Virus record (IMG/VR): IMGVR_UViG_3300033064_002019
Location: 1 to 23,252 of that record
Direction: 5' to 3' (one strand)
From: a virus
DNA: 23,252 nucleotides
Each line of letters opens with the position of its first letter. The first letter of the stretch is position 1. Shown in pieces: positions 3,089 to 9,825 of this stretch. Below the pieces are notes generated by a model. That model did not search any database. It saw only the letters and a program-made list of their open reading frames with translations, and had not been told where the DNA came from. Both the position numbers and the translations under genes were made by a program.

Positions 3089-3717
3089 GCAGGGGCTTAC
3101 ATGCCGACACCATCACAGCGCTTGGTGGCGATTTCCAGATGGCTCACCTTGTCAAGCTCGATCTTGATACGCCTATCTATGTGACAGACTACGGCACGAA
3201 TGTAACCTATGACAGTAATGAGTATCTGGCTTCCGGCCATTTGCTTGCCGTGGATAACATCAAAGAGACCTCCGATTTGCGCGTCGGCACTACGTCGATA
3301 GATTTATCTGCTGTTGAGCAATCCTATGTAAGCGCCTTTTTGACCGGCGATTATATGTCGCGGGGAATGACCATCTATCTCGCCATCATCACCACTGCGC
3401 CCGAACCGGATGTGTACACTCTCAGCCTAGATTATGGCTCAGACACTTACGGGTATGCTGACGCGGACGCTGTATTTAGTCCGATACAGGGCACGCCAAT
3501 AGAGTTATTCACGGGGCAGATTGTCGGCTTCTCGCTGGAAGATGGCGGGTCTAGCAGCGTCCTAACCGTCGAGGCCGCGTCCCACTGGAAAGACTTTCAG
3601 AAGGTTGCAGGGCGGCGCACAACCCCTAATAGCCAAAAGCGATTCTTCGCTACCGATGAAGGAATGGAGTTTGCCGTGGAGCAAAATAGAGAAGTTGTCT
3701 GGGGGAGGAGTAAGTAA
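3085..3717 (+). CDS. Tail hub-associated protein, DUF2163 / phage BR0599 family-like
   Basis: 210 aa. The N-terminal half (HADTITALGGDFQMAHLVKLDLDTPIYVTDYG...LASGHLLAVDNIKET) and the C-terminal motif (WKDFQKVAGRRTTPNSQKRFFATDEGMEFA) match the DUF2163/BR0599-type tail proteins encoded just before the J-like tip protein in many siphophages and in gene transfer agents. Likely role: part of the baseplate hub between distal tail protein and tip. It overlaps the upstream gene by ATGA and the downstream gene by TAATG. The strong ribosome binding site for the next gene (GGGAGGAG, 3703-3710) is inside its last codons. Confidence 0.8.
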   Translation: MSRGLHADTITALGGDFQMAHLVKLDLDTPIYVTDYGTNVTYDSNEYLASGHLLAVDNIKETSDLRVGTTSIDLSAVEQSYVSAFLTGDYMSRGMTIYLAIITTAPEPDVYTLSLDYGSDTYGYADADAVFSPIQGTPIELFTGQIVGFSLEDGGSSSVLTVEAASHWKDFQKVAGRRTTPNSQKRFFATDEGMEFAVEQNREVVWGRSK

Positions 3718-6700
3718 TGGGATGGGGCTTAATTATAGTCGCGATTTCCGTGGTTATCACGTATTTCACTGCGGCAGATGCCCAAAGGAAAGCTAAAAAG
3801 GCCGCAAAGGCCGCCGCCGATAATGCGCGGGGCGTGCTTATACAGCGTAAGGGCATCAATGAGCCTATCCCTGTCATATACGGTCAGCGGCGAGTCGCGG
3901 GCGCGGTGGTATTCACATCCACCAAAAATATACCCGGAGGCTTGCCGAACGAAAAGCTGTATATGGCTATTGTTTTATGCGAAGGGCCTGTCGAGTCTAT
4001 ATCGGATATATACATCAATGGCGAACGACTAGAGGGGTCTAAGTATACCACTCTCGTCACGGTTACGCCCGTGCTTGGCGAAGATGCGCAAACAGCAGAC
4101 AGCACATTAACGACCAATACTAACGAGTGGACATCCTCGCACAAGTTGAGCGGGCTGGCCTATCTATCGGTTGACATTCGTATGCCGGATTGGGGGGATG
4201 ATAATCCCTTCGCTGGAGCTATCCCAGAGTTTACTGCGCTCGTGCGAGGGAGGAAAGTTTACGATCCGCGAACCGCGTCCACGGCGTGGTCTGCAAATGC
4301 CGCGCTGTGTATTCGAGACTACCTAACAAATGCGACCTATGGGAAGGGGCTAGCGTCCGGCAAAATTAACGATGCGATGTTCGGGGCTGCTGCTGACATC
4401 CTTGACGACGCGGAAACGCTAGAGTCAGGCATTACGACGAACATAGGCACGCCTGACGCTGTTGGATCGTGGGGAACGCACGTCATTTCTTACTATGCGG
4501 TCTTTTCTGGGGTTGACCACACGGACAGCCTTCGGCCAGGCTCGGCGGTTACGCAAAACGGCAATCATTTTGAGGTCATATCTGCAAGCCGAATACGGGG
4601 CAGTGATGACACATCGCTGGTTTATGCGGCAGGTACCTCTCCCCCCGCGACGCTTATGACAACTGCGCACGATGTCACTGTCGATCCTGACGGCTCAGCT
4701 TTCGGCTGCCATGCGGTTATAGAGACATCCCACAATATTTTTGACAATATCAATACTCTACTGCTTGGTTGTCGCGGGTCTATGCCGTATTCGCAGGGGC
4801 AGTATGGGCTGCTTCTGGATGTCGCCGGATCGAGCGTATTTAGCTTCGGAGTTGATAATATTATCGACGGTATCTCAATATCAGGCGTGAGCAAGAGCGA
4901 TAAATTTAATCAAGTGCTTGTACGCTACGCAGACCCTAAGGCGGATTACCAATCTAACGAGGTAGTATTCCCGACTGTGGGCGATGCCGATGATGTCACA
5001 TGGTTGGCCGAGGACAACGGCGAACGGCTAACCACGGAATTTGAGGCTGAAACTCTAGCGATGGAGTCGGACGCGCTGAATTTGGCGAAGGCTATTTTAT
5101 ACCACTCAAGATACAATCTGAAAGTTTCGTTTAAATCGACCTCTGAGGCTTTTCAGATAGCGGTCGGGGACGTTGTGGATATCACACATCCCACTCCGGC
5201 ATGGACGGCGCAACTGTTCCGCGTGGAAAGTATCGGGCTAAACCCTGACGGAACGGCTAGCATTGGCGCGCGTGAGTACAATGCGGGGATTTATACCTAC
5301 GATAGTGTGGCGGCGCGAGCTAATGCTATTTTTACCGACTTGCCGAGTACGGACAACGTGGAAGCGCCTACCGCGCTTGTCCTTACAGATAGCTCTGTGC
5401 TGATAGGCGACGGGTCACTGAGTACCATTTTAGACGTGGCGTTTACCGAGTCCGATGATTACTTTGTTTCGGAGCATGAAGTGCAATGGAAGGTCACCAC
5501 AGACAGCGATTACAAATCACTTCGCACAACTAACGCACAAGCGCAGATATACGGCATCGAGGCAGGCAAGACTTACGATGTGCGCGTGAGGGCGATTAAC
5601 AGCTTTGGCAGCGTGTCTAGCTTTATATCTGACACACAGCTAGTTGAGAATGATACAACGGAACCTAGTGCGCCAACAAGCGTCACCGCTACATCTGCGC
5701 CTTTTGCCATTCAGCTATCTTGGACTAATCCGGCGGATGTGGATTTGGATGCGGTAGAGATACACGTTCGGTCTGCCAATACTACTCCGACCGATGACAC
5801 CTACTTAGATGAGACTGTTAAAGCCAAGCCGTACAAAGCACAAACTTTTAGGCTTACGGCTGGGGACTTTTCGCCAAATACCCCTTATTATATTTTTCTG
5901 CGCGCTGTGGATTATGCCGGGAATGAATCATCATTTACATCCAGCGTAAATGCGCAATTTCAGATACCCAGGTCGGCTTATGATTGGAGGTCTGCATCCT
6001 CCATAGGGTCGCAAAATGTCACCATCACTGGCGGGACTGACACAAGTTTTGATGTTCATCCATCCGGGCTCAATGCGGTCATCTTAAACGGGGCTGTTTC
6101 GGGGTCTATCCGCCTTCTCGAATTCGATATGACAGAAAAATTCAACCCCAGCACTGGAGCCACAGGCACTCAGCACACCTACGCATCTGGCATAGGTTTA
6201 TATAGTACTATTCAAGTTATTCGATTTAATTCTGACTGGTCAAAAGCACTGGTGTTGCTGGGCGGGCACATGGTAGCAATGAGCTTTTCTTCGGCTGGGG
6301 ATTTATCAACCGGAAGCGTTGACGCTAGCTTCGATTTCACTTCTACTCTTACTGATGCTGAAAACTTCTGCGTGTCTGGCGATGGTTTAACGCTGTTTAT
6401 CAACAATCAAACATCGGTATATCAGTTTTCCGTTTCTACGGCTTATACGGTGACAGGCATGGCATACGCATCAAAATCATTTACGCCGTCCGTGGGGATT
6501 GGGTGCCTAGAATATATAACGGCTAGCCGCTTGTTTGGCCTGTCTAAGTCAACCCCGACTGGGGTGTTAAAGATCACCGGCTACGAGTTTTATATGTCAA
6601 CTGACGATGACATTTCGACGGCAAAGCTATCCGTTGAGAGCGAGATGGGGGTTGACACATGGGGGAATAATTGTGGCGCAGCAAGGTTCTCGACTGATGG

Positions 6701-6785
6701 CGAGCGCATGATTATACTAGACGGCAGCGGGGTTTCTACAAACTGGATGATTGGGAGCAGTGTATCGTATGTCTTACCTGAATAA
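3717..6785 (+). CDS. Tail tip / host specificity protein, gpJ-like, with FN3 and beta-propeller-like C-terminus
   Basis: 1022 aa. It forms the tail tip and probably contacts the receptor. Residues 2-20 are hydrophobic, followed by a Lys/Ala-rich stretch and the J-family N-terminal signature (GINEPIPVIYGQRRVAGAVVF, CEGPVESISDIYINGE, GRKVYDP). Two fibronectin type III domains lie at about 548-645 and 648-742 (GKTYDVRVRAINSFGSVSS; PYYIFLRAVDYAGNES). From about 752 to the end there are repeated units of the form FNSDW-K-LVLLGG / VSGDGLTLFINNQTSVYQFSVSTAYTVT / FSTDGERMIILDGSG, which resemble the propeller-like repeats at the ends of some phage tail proteins. Start ATG follows GGGAGGAG and overlaps the upstream stop. 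Confidence 0.9.
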   Translation: MGWGLIIVAISVVITYFTAADAQRKAKKAAKAAADNARGVLIQRKGINEPIPVIYGQRRVAGAVVFTSTKNIPGGLPNEKLYMAIVLCEGPVESISDIYINGERLEGSKYTTLVTVTPVLGEDAQTADSTLTTNTNEWTSSHKLSGLAYLSVDIRMPDWGDDNPFAGAIPEFTALVRGRKVYDPRTASTAWSANAALCIRDYLTNATYGKGLASGKINDAMFGAAADILDDAETLESGITTNIGTPDAVGSWGTHVISYYAVFSGVDHTDSLRPGSAVTQNGNHFEVISASRIRGSDDTSLVYAAGTSPPATLMTTAHDVTVDPDGSAFGCHAVIETSHNIFDNINTLLLGCRGSMPYSQGQYGLLLDVAGSSVFSFGVDNIIDGISISGVSKSDKFNQVLVRYADPKADYQSNEVVFPTVGDADDVTWLAEDNGERLTTEFEAETLAMESDALNLAKAILYHSRYNLKVSFKSTSEAFQIAVGDVVDITHPTPAWTAQLFRVESIGLNPDGTASIGAREYNAGIYTYDSVAARANAIFTDLPSTDNVEAPTALVLTDSSVLIGDGSLSTILDVAFTESDDYFVSEHEVQWKVTTDSDYKSLRTTNAQAQIYGIEAGKTYDVRVRAINSFGSVSSFISDTQLVENDTTEPSAPTSVTATSAPFAIQLSWTNPADVDLDAVEIHVRSANTTPTDDTYLDETVKAKPYKAQTFRLTAGDFSPNTPYYIFLRAVDYAGNESSFTSSVNAQFQIPRSAYDWRSASSIGSQNVTITGGTDTSFDVHPSGLNAVILNGAVSGSIRLLEFDMTEKFNPSTGATGTQHTYASGIGLYSTIQVIRFNSDWSKALVLLGGHMVAMSFSSAGDLSTGSVDASFDFTSTLTDAENFCVSGDGLTLFINNQTSVYQFSVSTAYTVTGMAYASKSFTPSVGIGCLEYITASRLFGLSKSTPTGVLKITGYEFYMSTDDDISTAKLSVESEMGVDTWGNNCGAARFSTDGERMIILDGSGVSTNWMIGSSVSYVLPE

Positions 6786-7053
6786 ATGCTTACTTTTTGC
6801 TGCCTTCATAGCCGCATCTGGCTGCACCGCATACACTGAAATAGGCGCGCACCACGCCGTAAACCTTGCTGAGCCAACTGTTGGCTCGTTTGAGCTAGGT
6901 CTGCGCACTAGTGGCGCAAATTATCTTGAGTGCAGTTATACGCACTATTCCGAGCTTATGAACGGGTTTCCTTTTAACAATGCTCACGTTCCCGATCTGA
7001 TGAATATCTACGGATGCAAGGCAGGGATGGAATTTGATATAATGCGACCATGA
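6769..7053 (+). CDS. Small phage lipoprotein
   Basis: 94 aa. A hydrophobic signal (CLLFAAFIAAS) ends in the lipobox AASGC with Cys19, so the mature protein is expected to be lipid-anchored. The mature part is beta-rich (FELGLRTSGANYLECSYTHYSELMNGFPFNNAHV...YGCKAG) and has two further Cys residues that could form a disulfide. Start ATG 6769 was chosen over an in-frame TTG at 6751 because GGGAG (6753-6757) is correctly spaced and the signal peptide begins there. It overlaps the end of the tip gene by 17 bp. Late phage lipoproteins next to tail genes can mask the receptor after infection; here that is only a possibility. Confidence 0.7.
   Translation: MSYLNKCLLFAAFIAASGCTAYTEIGAHHAVNLAEPTVGSFELGLRTSGANYLECSYTHYSELMNGFPFNNAHVPDLMNIYGCKAGMEFDIMRP
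7035..7043 (+). promoter_or_regulatory. Candidate extended -10 promoter (TGATATAAT)
   Basis: A perfect TATAAT (7038-7043) is preceded by TG one base upstream, the extended -10 form. No good -35 was seen. It lies in the last codons of the lipoprotein gene and would start transcription near 7050, at the ATG of the next small gene. It may be chance in a coding region. Confidence 0.3.
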
Positions 7054-7184
7054 AAATTATTGTCTTTATATTTTGTTTGGTTATATCGGCCTGCGCCGGT
7101 GCGCCGGTTGCCACCGATCAGGACAGCGCCGCCGGTGTGCCTGAATTCTGCGCAAAATACCCATCGAGCGCGATATGTCGCTGA
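7050..7184 (+). CDS. 44-aa lipoprotein-like small protein
   Basis: A short gene overlapping both neighbours: ATGA with the upstream lipoprotein, and 10 bp with the downstream peptidase in another frame. The peptide begins MKIIVFIFCLVISAC, a short signal with lipobox VISAC (Cys15). A Pro/Ala/Gly linker follows, and then a Cys-containing tail, EFCAKYPSSAICR. The mature part would be 30 residues. It has no recognised family. Size and type recall small outer-membrane lipoproteins such as o-spanins, but no partner inner-membrane spanin overlaps it. The tight overlaps on both sides and the clear signal argue that it is real. Confidence 0.6.
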   Translation: MKIIVFIFCLVISACAGAPVATDQDSAAGVPEFCAKYPSSAICR

Positions 7185-7585
7185 AGCTATTCAAGGCCGC
7201 AAATAAGGCTGTTAGAGATAGCGGCTTTACCTATGCGACTGATGTCAACCAGCATGGCGTGGTGGAGTCTTGGGACTTGCTGGGCGATATGCGGAAGGGT
7301 GACTGCGAAGATTTTGCCCTGACGCAGATGGAAGCATATCTGGAGCTTGGCGGCGACCGTGACTCGTGCGGACTGGCTCGCGTTGCTACCGAAGTCGCTC
7401 CGGCGTGGCAGATACTAGACCATGCGGTTTTTGTCTATCTCAAAGATGGCAAGATTACCCACCTGACTGACAACCGCTTTATCGACTTTGGCGTTATGGC
7501 CGTTGGCGAGGTGCGTTACCGCTGGTATGACCTGATAACGCCAGATGATCTCAAACTTGGTCGTAAGGCCAAGTTGCTATCATGA
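7175..7585 (+). CDS. Transglutaminase-like cysteine peptidase (BTLCP / peptidase C93-like)
   Basis: 136 aa. It has the papain-fold triad in the right order: Cys44 in KGDCEDFAL, His83 in LDHAVFVY and Asp99 in THLTDNRF. This matches bacterial transglutaminase-like cysteine peptidases, a short stand-alone version of which is common after tail-tip genes in siphophages. It could process a tail protein or cleave cell-wall peptide; the substrate is unknown. Start ATG 7175 lies inside the preceding small lipoprotein gene, and the stop overlaps the PAS gene start (ATGA). Confidence 0.85.
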   Translation: MSLKLFKAANKAVRDSGFTYATDVNQHGVVESWDLLGDMRKGDCEDFALTQMEAYLELGGDRDSCGLARVATEVAPAWQILDHAVFVYLKDGKITHLTDNRFIDFGVMAVGEVRYRWYDLITPDDLKLGRKAKLLS

Positions 7586-8058
7586 GCGCGACCCTCCACA
7601 ATCTTGATGAGATGCGAGAGTTGCGCCTAGCCGTACAGCGGCAGGCCGACATCCATGCGCGGGTCGCTCCGAGAAACGAAGTGCCGACTCTTGACGAAAT
7701 CCGCAACGCCGAAAACATTATGTTCGCTAAAGGTGAGGATGGGCGAATGCTCGCATCGTCTAAGGGATACCGAACGTTAACAGGCGTTAGCTCTGACGCT
7801 TATGAGGGCTTGGATGATGTGGATGTGTGGGGCGAGGATGGGCAGCGATTTGCCGACAATGACGCTTTTGTGAGGATGACAGGCTCGCCGCTTCAGGTGG
7901 TTGAGTTTTGGATGGGCAAGGATGGAATACCCCAAGAGGGCGAGATACTTAAAGTGCCGTATAAATACGGCGATAAAATAGGCACTCTTGGGCGGGTGTT
8001 GCGCGATACGCTGCGCTTTTTAACGATGGACGAATACAGGGCGCGACAACGTGGCTGA
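7582..8058 (+). CDS. Stand-alone PAS-domain protein
   Basis: 158 aa. Residues 1-40 look helical. Residues about 45-148 follow the PAS pattern closely: NIMFAKGEDGRMLASSKGYRTLTG (first strands and helix), EGLDDVDVWGEDGQRFADND (the G-x-x-D-x-D-x-W loop and helix), FVRMTGSPLQVVEFW, and a closing KVPYKYGDKIGTLGRVLRDTL, equivalent to the usual KxPLxDxxGxIxGxxxxxRDxT ending. No kinase, cyclase or HTH output domain is attached. It could sense a small ligand or serve as a protein interaction module. It sits between the cysteine peptidase and the lysis cassette and is translationally coupled to the former (ATGA). The PAS assignment is from pattern recognition, not a search. Confidence 0.7.
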   Translation: MSATLHNLDEMRELRLAVQRQADIHARVAPRNEVPTLDEIRNAENIMFAKGEDGRMLASSKGYRTLTGVSSDAYEGLDDVDVWGEDGQRFADNDAFVRMTGSPLQVVEFWMGKDGIPQEGEILKVPYKYGDKIGTLGRVLRDTLRFLTMDEYRARQRG

Positions 8059-8347
8059 AGAAGAATACGGACTGCGCACAGCCCTGCTGATTAAACTTGC
8101 CGAGAATGTTGAAACATTGCAAAGGCTAGTGGCTGAGCAGGGCGCAACGGATACAGACATCCAGCGCATCATTAACGACATGCAAGATGAAATTCAGCGG
8201 CTGCAAAAGGGCAAGATGGACAGGCCGAAGTGTCTGATCTGGCTTCAAGCGCAATGGCTCAAGGCTTGGGGCATAGTGGTTATCGGTGGGTTTGTGGCAT
8301 GGATGTCGGGACTGCTAGAGAAAATCGGGGAATTGTTCAATGGGTGA
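8051..8347 (+). CDS. Coiled-coil plus transmembrane protein A (lysis-associated)
   Basis: 98 aa with a GTG start. Residues about 8-55 form a heptad-like helix (LIKLAENVETLQRLVAEQ...IQRIINDMQDEIQRLQKGK) and residues about 73-90 a single membrane helix (WGIVVIGGFVAWMSGLL) near the C-terminus. It is paralogous to the protein at 9071-9373: same order of ENV/ENL, acidic coil, K-L/M-D/T...W-L, W-KA, membrane helix. Its last codons overlap the ATG of an endolysin remnant, as the second copy overlaps the intact endolysin. A holin or antiholin role is an inference from context; the family was not recognised. Confidence 0.65.
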   Translation: MAEEEYGLRTALLIKLAENVETLQRLVAEQGATDTDIQRIINDMQDEIQRLQKGKMDRPKCLIWLQAQWLKAWGIVVIGGFVAWMSGLLEKIGELFNG

Positions 8348-8468
8348 AGCAGAAAAAATCGTTTCGGAAGATGCTGCAAACCAAGCACTCATGTCGCGAT
8401 GGTACAAGCAGACACCGGCTCGCGCCGAGCGTCATGCTGACATGCTTGAAGAGGTTACTTGGACATGA
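8340..8468 (+). pseudogene. Internally deleted endolysin remnant (in frame, 42 aa)
   Basis: The frame MGEAEKIVSEDAANQALMSR...ADMLEEVTWT matches the intact endolysin at 9352-9825 with residues 4-7 and 14-120 missing. GCAGAAAAAATCGTTTCG (8349-8366) equals 9373-9390, and 8366-8449 equals 9711-9794 over 84 bp without a mismatch. Counting the shared G, 321 bases (107 codons) are absent, so the frame is kept. The catalytic Glu, Cys and Thr are all lost, so it cannot be a muramidase. It could be relic DNA, or a short peptide still translated from the same overlapping start signal. It ends inside the ATG of the holin gene. Confidence 0.8.
8366..8449 (+). repeat. 84-bp perfect direct repeat, copy 1
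   Basis: Identical to 9711-9794. It encodes the C-terminal lysozyme segment EDAANQALMSRWYKQTPARA and the following residues up to ADMLE. The copies are 1345 bp apart, and recombination between them would remove the holin, TM protein B and most of the endolysin. Confidence 0.95.
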
Positions 8469-8956
8469 GCATATTTGGTGAAATAGCAAAGCTGGCCACA
8501 GGCGGCATCGGCGGGCAGGTGCTGGACATTATCGAGCGGCAATTCCCCGGCAAGCTGACTCCGCAAGAGCAGTCCGAATTGTCGGTAACTCTTGAGCGCA
8601 TGGAAATGGAAAGGGAGCAGCAGGCAAACAATGCCATTGCTGAAGCGGAACGGTCGCTAAACGAGCGAGTAGCGGAATACGAAGGCACTGCATCAGAAAT
8701 CAAAGATATGTGGCTAGTCGGCCCCCTGGTGATTCTGATGCGGTCTTTATTTCGGCCAATATGTTCATACGTCACGCTGTATCTGAATTTTGTGTACTTC
8801 ACTAGCGTTAATGACTGGTCGCCAGAGACAACGAATCTCCTGGTGGTCATTGACGTGATTGTTTTTGGGTTCTGGTTCGGTGAACGAGCCGTGAAAAATG
8901 TACTTCCCATCGTGCTTGCTTGGATGGATAAACGCCAGACAAGCGACCAGCCGTAA
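8465..8956 (+). CDS. Holin, 3TM gene-transfer-release type (GTA_holin_3TM-like)
   Basis: 163 aa. The N-terminal half is a soluble amphipathic helix region (IIERQFPGKLTPQEQSELSVTLERMEMEREQQ). The C-terminal half has two clear and possibly three membrane segments: about 78-110 (MWLVGPLVILMRSLFRPICSYVTLYLNFVYF) and about 120-142 (NLLVVIDVIVFGFWFG). This is the layout of the 3TM holins first described for gene transfer agents. Role: timed permeabilisation of the inner membrane so the endolysin reaches the wall. ATG 8465 was preferred over an in-frame TTG at 8459 because GAAGAGG lies at 8448-8454. It is flanked by the two paralogous TM proteins. Confidence 0.8.
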   Translation: MSIFGEIAKLATGGIGGQVLDIIERQFPGKLTPQEQSELSVTLERMEMEREQQANNAIAEAERSLNERVAEYEGTASEIKDMWLVGPLVILMRSLFRPICSYVTLYLNFVYFTSVNDWSPETTNLLVVIDVIVFGFWFGERAVKNVLPIVLAWMDKRQTSDQP

Positions 8957-9070: not shown

Positions 9071-9373
9071 TTGCGCACGCAGTTACTACTATCTATCGGG
9101 GAAAACTTGCGCGAAGTAGAGCGCCGCCTGGGAGATTTTGAGAAGCCGCTGGGCGCGCTGGGTATCGAAGATGCAAGATCGGCGTCAGAGCTAAAGCGCA
9201 TGATAGATGAAATTGAAATAAAAATAGCGGCATTGCAGCGCGACAAGCTGACCACGCCAGAGTGGCTGAGGGTATTTGGCCGGGAGTGGCCGAAGGCGTT
9301 AGCCCTGCTTTTGATCGGTGCTATACTTGCCAAAGTGTCGGGATTTTTCACATGGGTGAATCAATGGATTTAG
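9071..9373 (+). CDS. Coiled-coil plus transmembrane protein B, paralogue of A
   Basis: The open frame begins after TAA 9056-9058, and the only early start is TTG 9071 without a Shine-Dalgarno sequence. Residues 3-60 form an acidic coiled coil (IGENLREVERRLGDFEKPL, SELKRMIDEIEIKIAALQRDK), followed by WLRVFGREWPKAL and a membrane helix (LALLLIGAILAKVSGFF). The first aligned residues (LRTQLLLSIGENL) correspond to internal residues of protein A (LRTALLIKLAENV), so the N-terminus seems lost or shifted. An ATG at 9028 in another frame reads up to this point, which may mark a frameshift. It overlaps the endolysin start by 22 bp. Whether it is translated as drawn is uncertain. Confidence 0.6.
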   Translation: MRTQLLLSIGENLREVERRLGDFEKPLGALGIEDARSASELKRMIDEIEIKIAALQRDKLTTPEWLRVFGREWPKALALLLIGAILAKVSGFFTWVNQWI

Positions 9374-9825
9374 CAGAAAAAATCGTTTCGTATGAAGAGG
9401 GCTTTAGGGCAACTCCATACTATTGCTCCGAGTTTTACCCCACGGTCGGGCATGGGTTCAAGATAGGCACCCGCTATGCTCCGATAGAGCAATATAGCTT
9501 TTACCTGCCTGAGCAAGTGTCACGCGCATGGCTGCAATGCATTTTGGTCGATTTAGAGCAGACACTGGCTCACGACAAAGAAACCGAAGCGGCTTTTTTG
9601 AACTGTAACACGGTGCGCAGGGCGGTTCTGATTTCGATGGCGTATCAGCTTGGCATGGCTGGCCTGAAAGGTTTTAAGAAGATGCTTAATGCCGTCGAGC
9701 GTCAGGACTGGGAAGATGCTGCAAACCAAGCACTCATGTCGCGATGGTACAAGCAGACACCGGCTCGCGCCGAGCGTCATGCTGACATGCTTGAGACTGG
9801 CGAGATGTGCGGGGAGTATTTATGA
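9352..9825 (+). CDS. Endolysin, T4-type lysozyme (GH24 muramidase)
   Basis: 157 aa. It cleaves the MurNAc-GlcNAc bond of peptidoglycan at lysis. The triad follows E-x8-(D/C)-x5-T: Glu16, Cys25 and Thr31 in EEGFRATPYYCSEFYPTVGHG. Cys replaces the Asp20 of T4 lysozyme, a variation known to work in this family. The C-terminal lysozyme motif SRWYKQTPARAERHADML is intact. No signal peptide is present, so it needs the holin. ATG 9352 with GGGA 8 bases upstream was chosen; a second ATG is at 9364. The long upstream extension of the frame to a TTG at 9262 overlaps protein B and is not family-like. It shares 84 bp with the remnant at 8340-8468. Confidence 0.92.
   Translation: MGESMDLAEKIVSYEEGFRATPYYCSEFYPTVGHGFKIGTRYAPIEQYSFYLPEQVSRAWLQCILVDLEQTLAHDKETEAAFLNCNTVRRAVLISMAYQLGMAGLKGFKKMLNAVERQDWEDAANQALMSRWYKQTPARAERHADMLETGEMCGEYL
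9711..9794 (+). repeat. 84-bp perfect direct repeat, copy 2
   Basis: This copy lies inside the intact endolysin gene and is identical to 8366-8449; identity stops at 9710 (G versus C) on the left and 9795 on the right. Confidence 0.95.

Follow-up and report, generated by a model that had tools for sequence, protein, structure and literature searches.

Why does a phage carry, next to its lysis genes, a gene that encodes a PAS domain and little else? The question is raised by a phage found in environmental DNA, of which a stretch of 23,252 nucleotides (IMG/VR record IMGVR_UViG_3300033064_002019; here called the window) was analysed. The original prediction described the product of the gene at 7582–8058 as a PAS fold with no output domain, placed it between a cysteine peptidase and the lysis genes, and suggested that it could influence the timing of lysis or else serve as a structural or virion domain. 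The analysis below places far higher confidence in the PAS fold than in any lysis-regulation mechanism.

Sequence and fold of the PAS protein

The protein consists of an N-terminal helix (residues 3–28), a PAS domain (residues ~45–146) and a short C-terminal helix. Its sole Pfam match is PAS_4 (PF08448), on residues 47–137, with an E-value of 1.8e-4 and a score of 22.2 bits, slightly short of the 23.1-bit cutoff; searches of PHROGs and NCBIfam gave no match. A tblastn search of 2.3 Gb returned one phage match, the ‘PAS fold protein’ g078 of Cellulophaga phage phi14:2 (E 5e-4). The two proteins align at 31% over 80 aa, with a phmmer E-value of 6.6e-9 in a small local set, and are homologous by both methods. 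The PAS_4 cutoff is passed by L011, a relative of phi14:2 g078, at 32.4 bits, and the protein of phage MA9V-2 scores 32 bits. Run against a small local set, a profile built from the phage PAS sequences also finds PAS regions within large bacterial ORFs (E-values of 1e-11 to 1e-15).

The structure was modelled with AlphaFold2 from a six-sequence alignment, which included two phage relatives and three PAS regions of bacterial ORFs. The model has a mean pLDDT of 85.8, with much of the PAS core above 90. It shows the PAS topology: strands A-beta and B-beta, the C, D, E and F helices, and then three long strands, G-, H- and I-beta. Of the 50 PDB matches that Foldseek lists, essentially every one is a PAS or LOV protein or a complex in which one is present; E-values go down to 4.5e-5, with a probability of 1.00. 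They include the BvgS PAS domain, VqmA (among them the phage VqmA-DPO complex, 7dwm), NifL, LIC_11128 and CPS_1291, and TM-scores to several isolated PAS domains are 0.65–0.71 when normalised by target length. The model, the structural matches and the homology to phi14:2 g078 all bear out the predicted fold. No kinase, HTH or cyclase is found by Pfam in the frame, which ends at 8058, and outside the PAS core there are just helices, none of them a TM-like segment. The product of 7582–8058 is thus confirmed as a canonical single PAS domain behind a helix, without an output domain.

The protein contains no cysteine, and its only histidines, at positions 6 and 25, are in the N-terminal helix, outside the PAS core. 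Light sensing of the LOV type, PYP chemistry and standard heme sensing are therefore unlikely. Candidates for what it might bind include a flavin, a metabolite or a protein partner.

A terminator-like hairpin followed by TTTTT lies at 8001–8016, in the 3′ part of the PAS gene and just before the coiled-coil/TM gene; it could be due to chance, there being 10 such sites in the region against 3.8 expected.

Organization of the lysis cassette

The features surrounding the PAS gene are collected in Table 1. As predicted, the gene lies between that of a C93-type cysteine peptidase and the lysis genes. The stop codon of the peptidase gene overlaps the start of the PAS gene (ATGA), and the last 8 nt of the PAS gene overlap the GTG start of the gene for HolA (GTGGCTGA). 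Since both junctions overlap, the three genes look translationally coupled.

Table 1. Features of the window from the tail gene to the endolysin.
Feature	Coordinates	Strand	Evidence
J-type tail gene, upstream of the lipoproteins	3717–6785		
Putative lipoprotein, lipobox ASGC, after the tail gene	6769–7053	+	sequence
Small putative lipoprotein, 44 aa, lipobox ISAC	7050–7184	+	sequence
Transglutaminase-like cysteine peptidase, Peptidase_C93/BTLCP, LapG-type	7175–7585	+	PF06035, E 1.2e-6, above cutoff
Single-PAS protein	7582–8058	+	158 aa, ATG start, TGA stop
Coiled-coil protein with C-terminal TM (HolA), 98 aa, XhlA-like layout, GTG start	8051–8347	+	hydropathy, sequence
Internally deleted lysozyme remnant, 42 aa	8340–8468	+	self-comparison, translation
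Holin of the 3-TM type	8465–8956	+	tblastn, E 8e-28 to 4e-21
Second coiled-coil protein with C-terminal TM (HolB), 100 aa	9071–9373	+	hydropathy, sequence
T4-type lysozyme (endolysin)	9352–9825	+	PF00959, E 2.9e-7; phrog_7 endolysin, E 1e-12

Homologues of the 3-TM protein adjoin an M15 peptidase, amidase or endolysin gene in Vibrio and Shewanella phages; that of Shewanella phage X14 is annotated ‘Holin of 3TMs’ and stands beside an endolysin. The lysozyme has the E-8aa-C-5aa-T triad, and no SAR or signal sequence was seen in it. It is encoded about four genes downstream of the PAS gene, with the holin in between. The presence of a 3-TM holin homologue together with a lysozyme therefore defines a lysis cassette that includes a holin of its own; going by gene order the PAS gene is the predicted first or second gene of that cassette. 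The lipoprotein at the end of the tail gene is a possible outer-membrane lysis partner.

HolA and HolB are paralogues (blastp, 26% over 98 columns). Their layout is shared with the XhlA-type lysis proteins, in which a coiled coil is followed by a C-terminal TM; a weak profile similarity is found for HolB only (phrog_1193 ‘hemolysin’, E 0.034). To our knowledge, XhlA-type proteins have no PAS partner. A tblastn search found no relatives of HolB in phages, which left the coil-TM family untraced.

In the lysozyme remnant, 84 bp at 8366–8449 are 100% identical to 9710–9793 of the intact lysozyme gene, in contrast with the 26% between HolA and HolB. The remnant may represent a recent duplication, a gene conversion or an artefact of metagenome assembly. 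Past the lysis genes, the segment 9950–10140 folds better than shuffled sequences (z -3.15) into a long hairpin, a possible convergent terminator between the late and early gene blocks.

Single-PAS genes in other phages

No close relatives of the PAS protein were found in scans of IMG/VR and GTDB, or in a plasmid search, and profile scans of viral contigs gave only phi14:2 and one relative. The J-type tail gene also occurs in many viral contigs from metagenomes, as well as in Pelagibacter phages (HTVC111P) and Roseobacter phages. PAS_4 was detected in none of the 42 contigs and 3 isolate phages that have related J-type tail genes, many of the contigs being short fragments; in this set, matches were limited to the window and to PAS-bearing records added on purpose. 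The PAS gene has therefore been acquired or retained apart from the tail module, and would seem not to be essential for this tail type. Homologues of the lysis genes were likewise not found in the tail-related contigs and isolates, apart from a lysozyme in a few. The PAS gene had been called unusual for its position; this holds among the tail-related phages and does not hold for phages at large, as the more distant relatives show.

Starting from phi14:2 g078, tblastn leads to the Chryseobacterium phages MA9V-1 and MA9V-2 and to Brevundimonas phages. A Foldseek search of predicted viral structures leads to gp090 of phi18:3 and gp108 of phi19:1, the matches being tied to these annotated genes by organism and length. 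Both belong to families without an assigned function (phrog_10199 and phrog_31932), which match each other and, weakly, the PAS region of phi14:2 (E 0.0019). The phrog_10199 group is found in 24 Cellulophaga phage records and has no Pfam match. Its identity as a PAS domain is indirect, indicated by Foldseek (E 5.5e-6) and hhalign (E 3.5e-4); the AlphaFold2 model of phi18:3 gp090 is poor (pLDDT 37) and was left out of the PAS evidence. A fecal record with a PAS match, MT837829 (H74), was set aside as an unverified 6.5-kb scaffold with no annotation.

In Cellulophaga phages of several families, single-PAS genes are located one to five genes from an endolysin, and most single-PAS relatives carry an N-terminal TM segment or coil. 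The gene for phi14:2 g078 (TM-coil-PAS) is immediately upstream of a GH19 endolysin. In phi18:3 and phi46:3 a TM-PAS gene lies two genes before a GH108 endolysin and has multi-TM neighbours, and in phi38:2 the TM-PAS gene (gp11) overlaps that of an M15 endolysin. The TM-coil-PAS genes of phi19:1 and Nekkels adjoin a holin-like gene and are in the same late block as a GH19 lysozyme, five genes before it. The PAS gene of Ingeline lies two genes before a DUF5675 gene, and downstream of that of L011 come a DUF5675 gene and, next to it, a gene with an N-terminal TM. In the Chryseobacterium jumbo phage MA9V-2, a TM-coil-PAS gene stands two genes after a GH108 gene. The Brevundimonas jumbo phages are the exception to this proximity, for in them 24 genes (38 kb) separate the PAS gene and the lysozyme.

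The muralytic enzymes concerned are mutually unrelated (PF00959; PF00182, GH19; PF05838, GH108; PF13539, M15), so the PAS gene has been kept while the endolysins differ. A Fisher combination of the gene distances gives a p-value of about 3e-5 over eight lineages, or 2e-4 when the phrog_10199 group is represented by a single member; this rough test was devised after viewing the neighbourhoods, uses gene counts and one endolysin per genome, counts DUF5675 as muralytic and treats lineages that are not fully independent, and its result is indicative only.

Two further observations concern these loci. DUF5675 (PF18925, phrog_1501; L011:649–1257 and L108:5189–5620) occupies, in two phages, the endolysin slot one or two genes after a TM-PAS gene, and on this positional ground may be an unrecognised muralytic enzyme. 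In MA9V-2, two overlapping membrane or lipoprotein genes directly 3′ of the TM-PAS gene (L003:4608–5631) look like spanin-type partners.

A membrane-anchored partner and a proposed role in lysis timing

In every lineage whose neighbours were examined the PAS domain is accompanied by a TM segment, and usually by a coiled coil too. In the Bacteroidota phages the TM is fused N-terminally to the PAS domain. The window protein does not have TM, coil and PAS in one polypeptide; here, as in the Brevundimonas phages, the PAS protein is soluble and the next gene, which overlaps it by 8–11 nt, encodes a coil followed by a TM at the C-terminus. That the parts are fused in one lineage and encoded by overlapping genes in another is a usual sign of a physical pair, and suggests that the PAS and coil-TM proteins form one. 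By the positive-inside rule, read by eye rather than computed, the coil of the window protein HolA and the PAS domains of phi14:2, L011 and MA9V would be cytoplasmic, and the PAS domain of phi18:3 could be periplasmic.

These features lead us to propose that the PAS protein is a membrane-docked regulator of lysis timing that acts through its coil-TM partner, a reading to which we assign a probability of roughly 0.4. The soluble cytoplasmic PAS protein would pair with the product of the next, overlapping gene by docking onto the cytoplasmic coiled coil of HolA, presumed to sit in the inner membrane. A small ligand or another cue to the state of the cell might then switch the dimer state or the contacts of the PAS protein, and this switch would delay or release lysis by the holin and lysozyme, so that the PAS protein would behave as a gated anti-holin or lysis regulator. 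The analysis shows the PAS fold, the overlapping gene order, the separate 3-TM holin and lysozyme, single-PAS genes that recur next to endolysins of unrelated types, and the fusions of TM or coil to PAS in other phages. With a 3-TM holin encoded separately in the window, that role need not fall to the PAS protein and HolA. The idea of an influence on lysis timing, put forward in the original prediction, thus gains indirect support from the recurrence near muralytic genes of unrelated phages and from the TM/coil fusions and overlaps. The PAS/coil-TM pair of the Brevundimonas phages, some 38 kb from the lysis cassette, counts against it.

Alternative explanations

The main rival is that the PAS protein is directed at the host. 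PAS domains bind one another, and in Brevundimonas phages the copies lie away from the lysis genes; on these grounds a cytoplasmic protein that sequesters a PAS-bearing regulator of the host (e.g. a sensor kinase), or mimics its PAS dimer, has to be considered, the lysis operon merely setting late expression. Such a decoy or moonlighting sensor would suit a domain that lacks an output and whose type occurs in large bacterial PAS ORFs, and absence from the tail-related phages is what would be expected of an accessory gene. It leaves unexplained, however, both the recurrence beside unrelated types of muralytic enzyme and the fusion or overlap with TM and coil in every lineage whose neighbours were examined, and we regard it as unlikely. 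A further reading is that the TM/coil-PAS protein, or the PAS and coil-TM pair, forms the pore itself, as a holin that bears a PAS domain on the cytoplasmic side. In phi14:2, L011 and phi38:2 the PAS gene directly precedes an endolysin-type gene, the usual place of a holin, and the N-terminal part of the TM/coil-PAS protein matches phrog ‘hol-like chemotaxis’ families. The window, however, encodes a 3-TM holin homologue of its own, a distinct holin-like gene adjoins the PAS gene in phi19:1, two of the neighbours in phi18:3 are multi-TM proteins, and holins with a single TM, although known, are uncommon; a pore-forming role is accordingly improbable for the PAS protein.

A minor virion, tail-assembly or injected protein would also fit a gene that is encoded just past the tail tip genes, with a few genes between it and the J-like tail gene, and the PAS genes of phi14:2, phi18:3, phi38:2 and Ingeline likewise follow structural genes. 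The Cellulophaga records tag many structural genes ‘experimental MS/MS proteomics’, but in the records examined none of the PAS genes (g078, gp090, gp108 and gp11) bears this flag, which disfavours the virion alternative raised in the original prediction. Anchored relatives moreover suit a membrane role better than a virion one, and the gene is missing from phages that share the tail module; we therefore give a virion role a low probability. That the similarity to PAS reflects chance composition, or a decaying fragment acquired horizontally and without function, might be argued from the Pfam score below the cutoff, the lack of close relatives and the broken lysozyme copy nearby, a sign of ongoing rearrangement. 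Set against this are an intact reading frame whose start and stop both overlap other genes, a GC3 of 0.59 similar to that of its neighbours, the conserved G-x-x-D-x-D-x-W and K-x-P positions and a confidently predicted fold, which leave this explanation very improbable.

Relation to known systems and implications

The closest phage relative in sequence, phi14:2 g078 (Crassvirales, Steigviridae), resembles the window protein in being a single PAS domain without an output, encoded by a late gene beside an endolysin. It differs in its fused N-terminal TM and coiled coil, whereas the window PAS stands alone, overlapped by a separate coil-TM gene, and it comes from a different phage group. The phrog_10199/phrog_31932 proteins (phi18:3, Ingeline, phi38:2, phi19:1, Nekkels) share with the window a PAS-like domain, C-terminal in their case, and a location near endolysins, but are membrane-anchored and too diverged for Pfam.

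Among known systems, the nearest working precedent is VqmA of phage VP882, a phage-encoded PAS protein that steers a phage lysis decision. VqmA is a PAS-HTH quorum-sensing receptor that acts transcriptionally in the lysis-lysogeny switch; the window protein, by contrast, is the product of a late-type gene, and with its PAS domain ending at residue ~146 of 158 and no Pfam HTH it lacks the C-terminal HTH of VqmA. T4 holin T and its antiholin RI offer an analogy only, no homology being claimed, in that a sensory protein-protein contact delays lysis. Sensing by T and RI is periplasmic, whereas the window PAS is predicted to be cytoplasmic. Beyond T4 RI/T and transcriptional quorum-sensing receptors such as VqmA, we know of few phage lysis sensors.

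Single-PAS proteins are a known type, since databases hold ‘PAS domain’ entries from uncultured phages. In the papers searched, on PAS in connection with phage holins, lysis or endolysins, no lysis cassette is described as containing a PAS protein, and the paper on Ingeline and Nekkels reports membrane proteins near lysins and no PAS (PMC8776804). The occurrence of PAS genes at lysis loci thus appears not to have been described previously. It is possible, if somewhat on the unlikely side, that PAS is a recurring and unrecognised sensory module of phage lysis cassettes, which in membrane-anchored or coil-TM-coupled forms would sense a host cue and gate lysis, and which has been kept beside endolysins exchanged for unrelated enzymes in several Bacteroidota phage families and in the phage described here.

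Phages tune lysis to conditions, and some may use PAS sensors to time the bursting of the host. If this is true, PAS modules coupled to lysis genes would represent a new class of sensor, one that operates late in infection. Such a module could explain unannotated membrane genes in the lysis loci of Cellulophaga and Chryseobacterium phages, and it is testable in the cultured phages of both genera.
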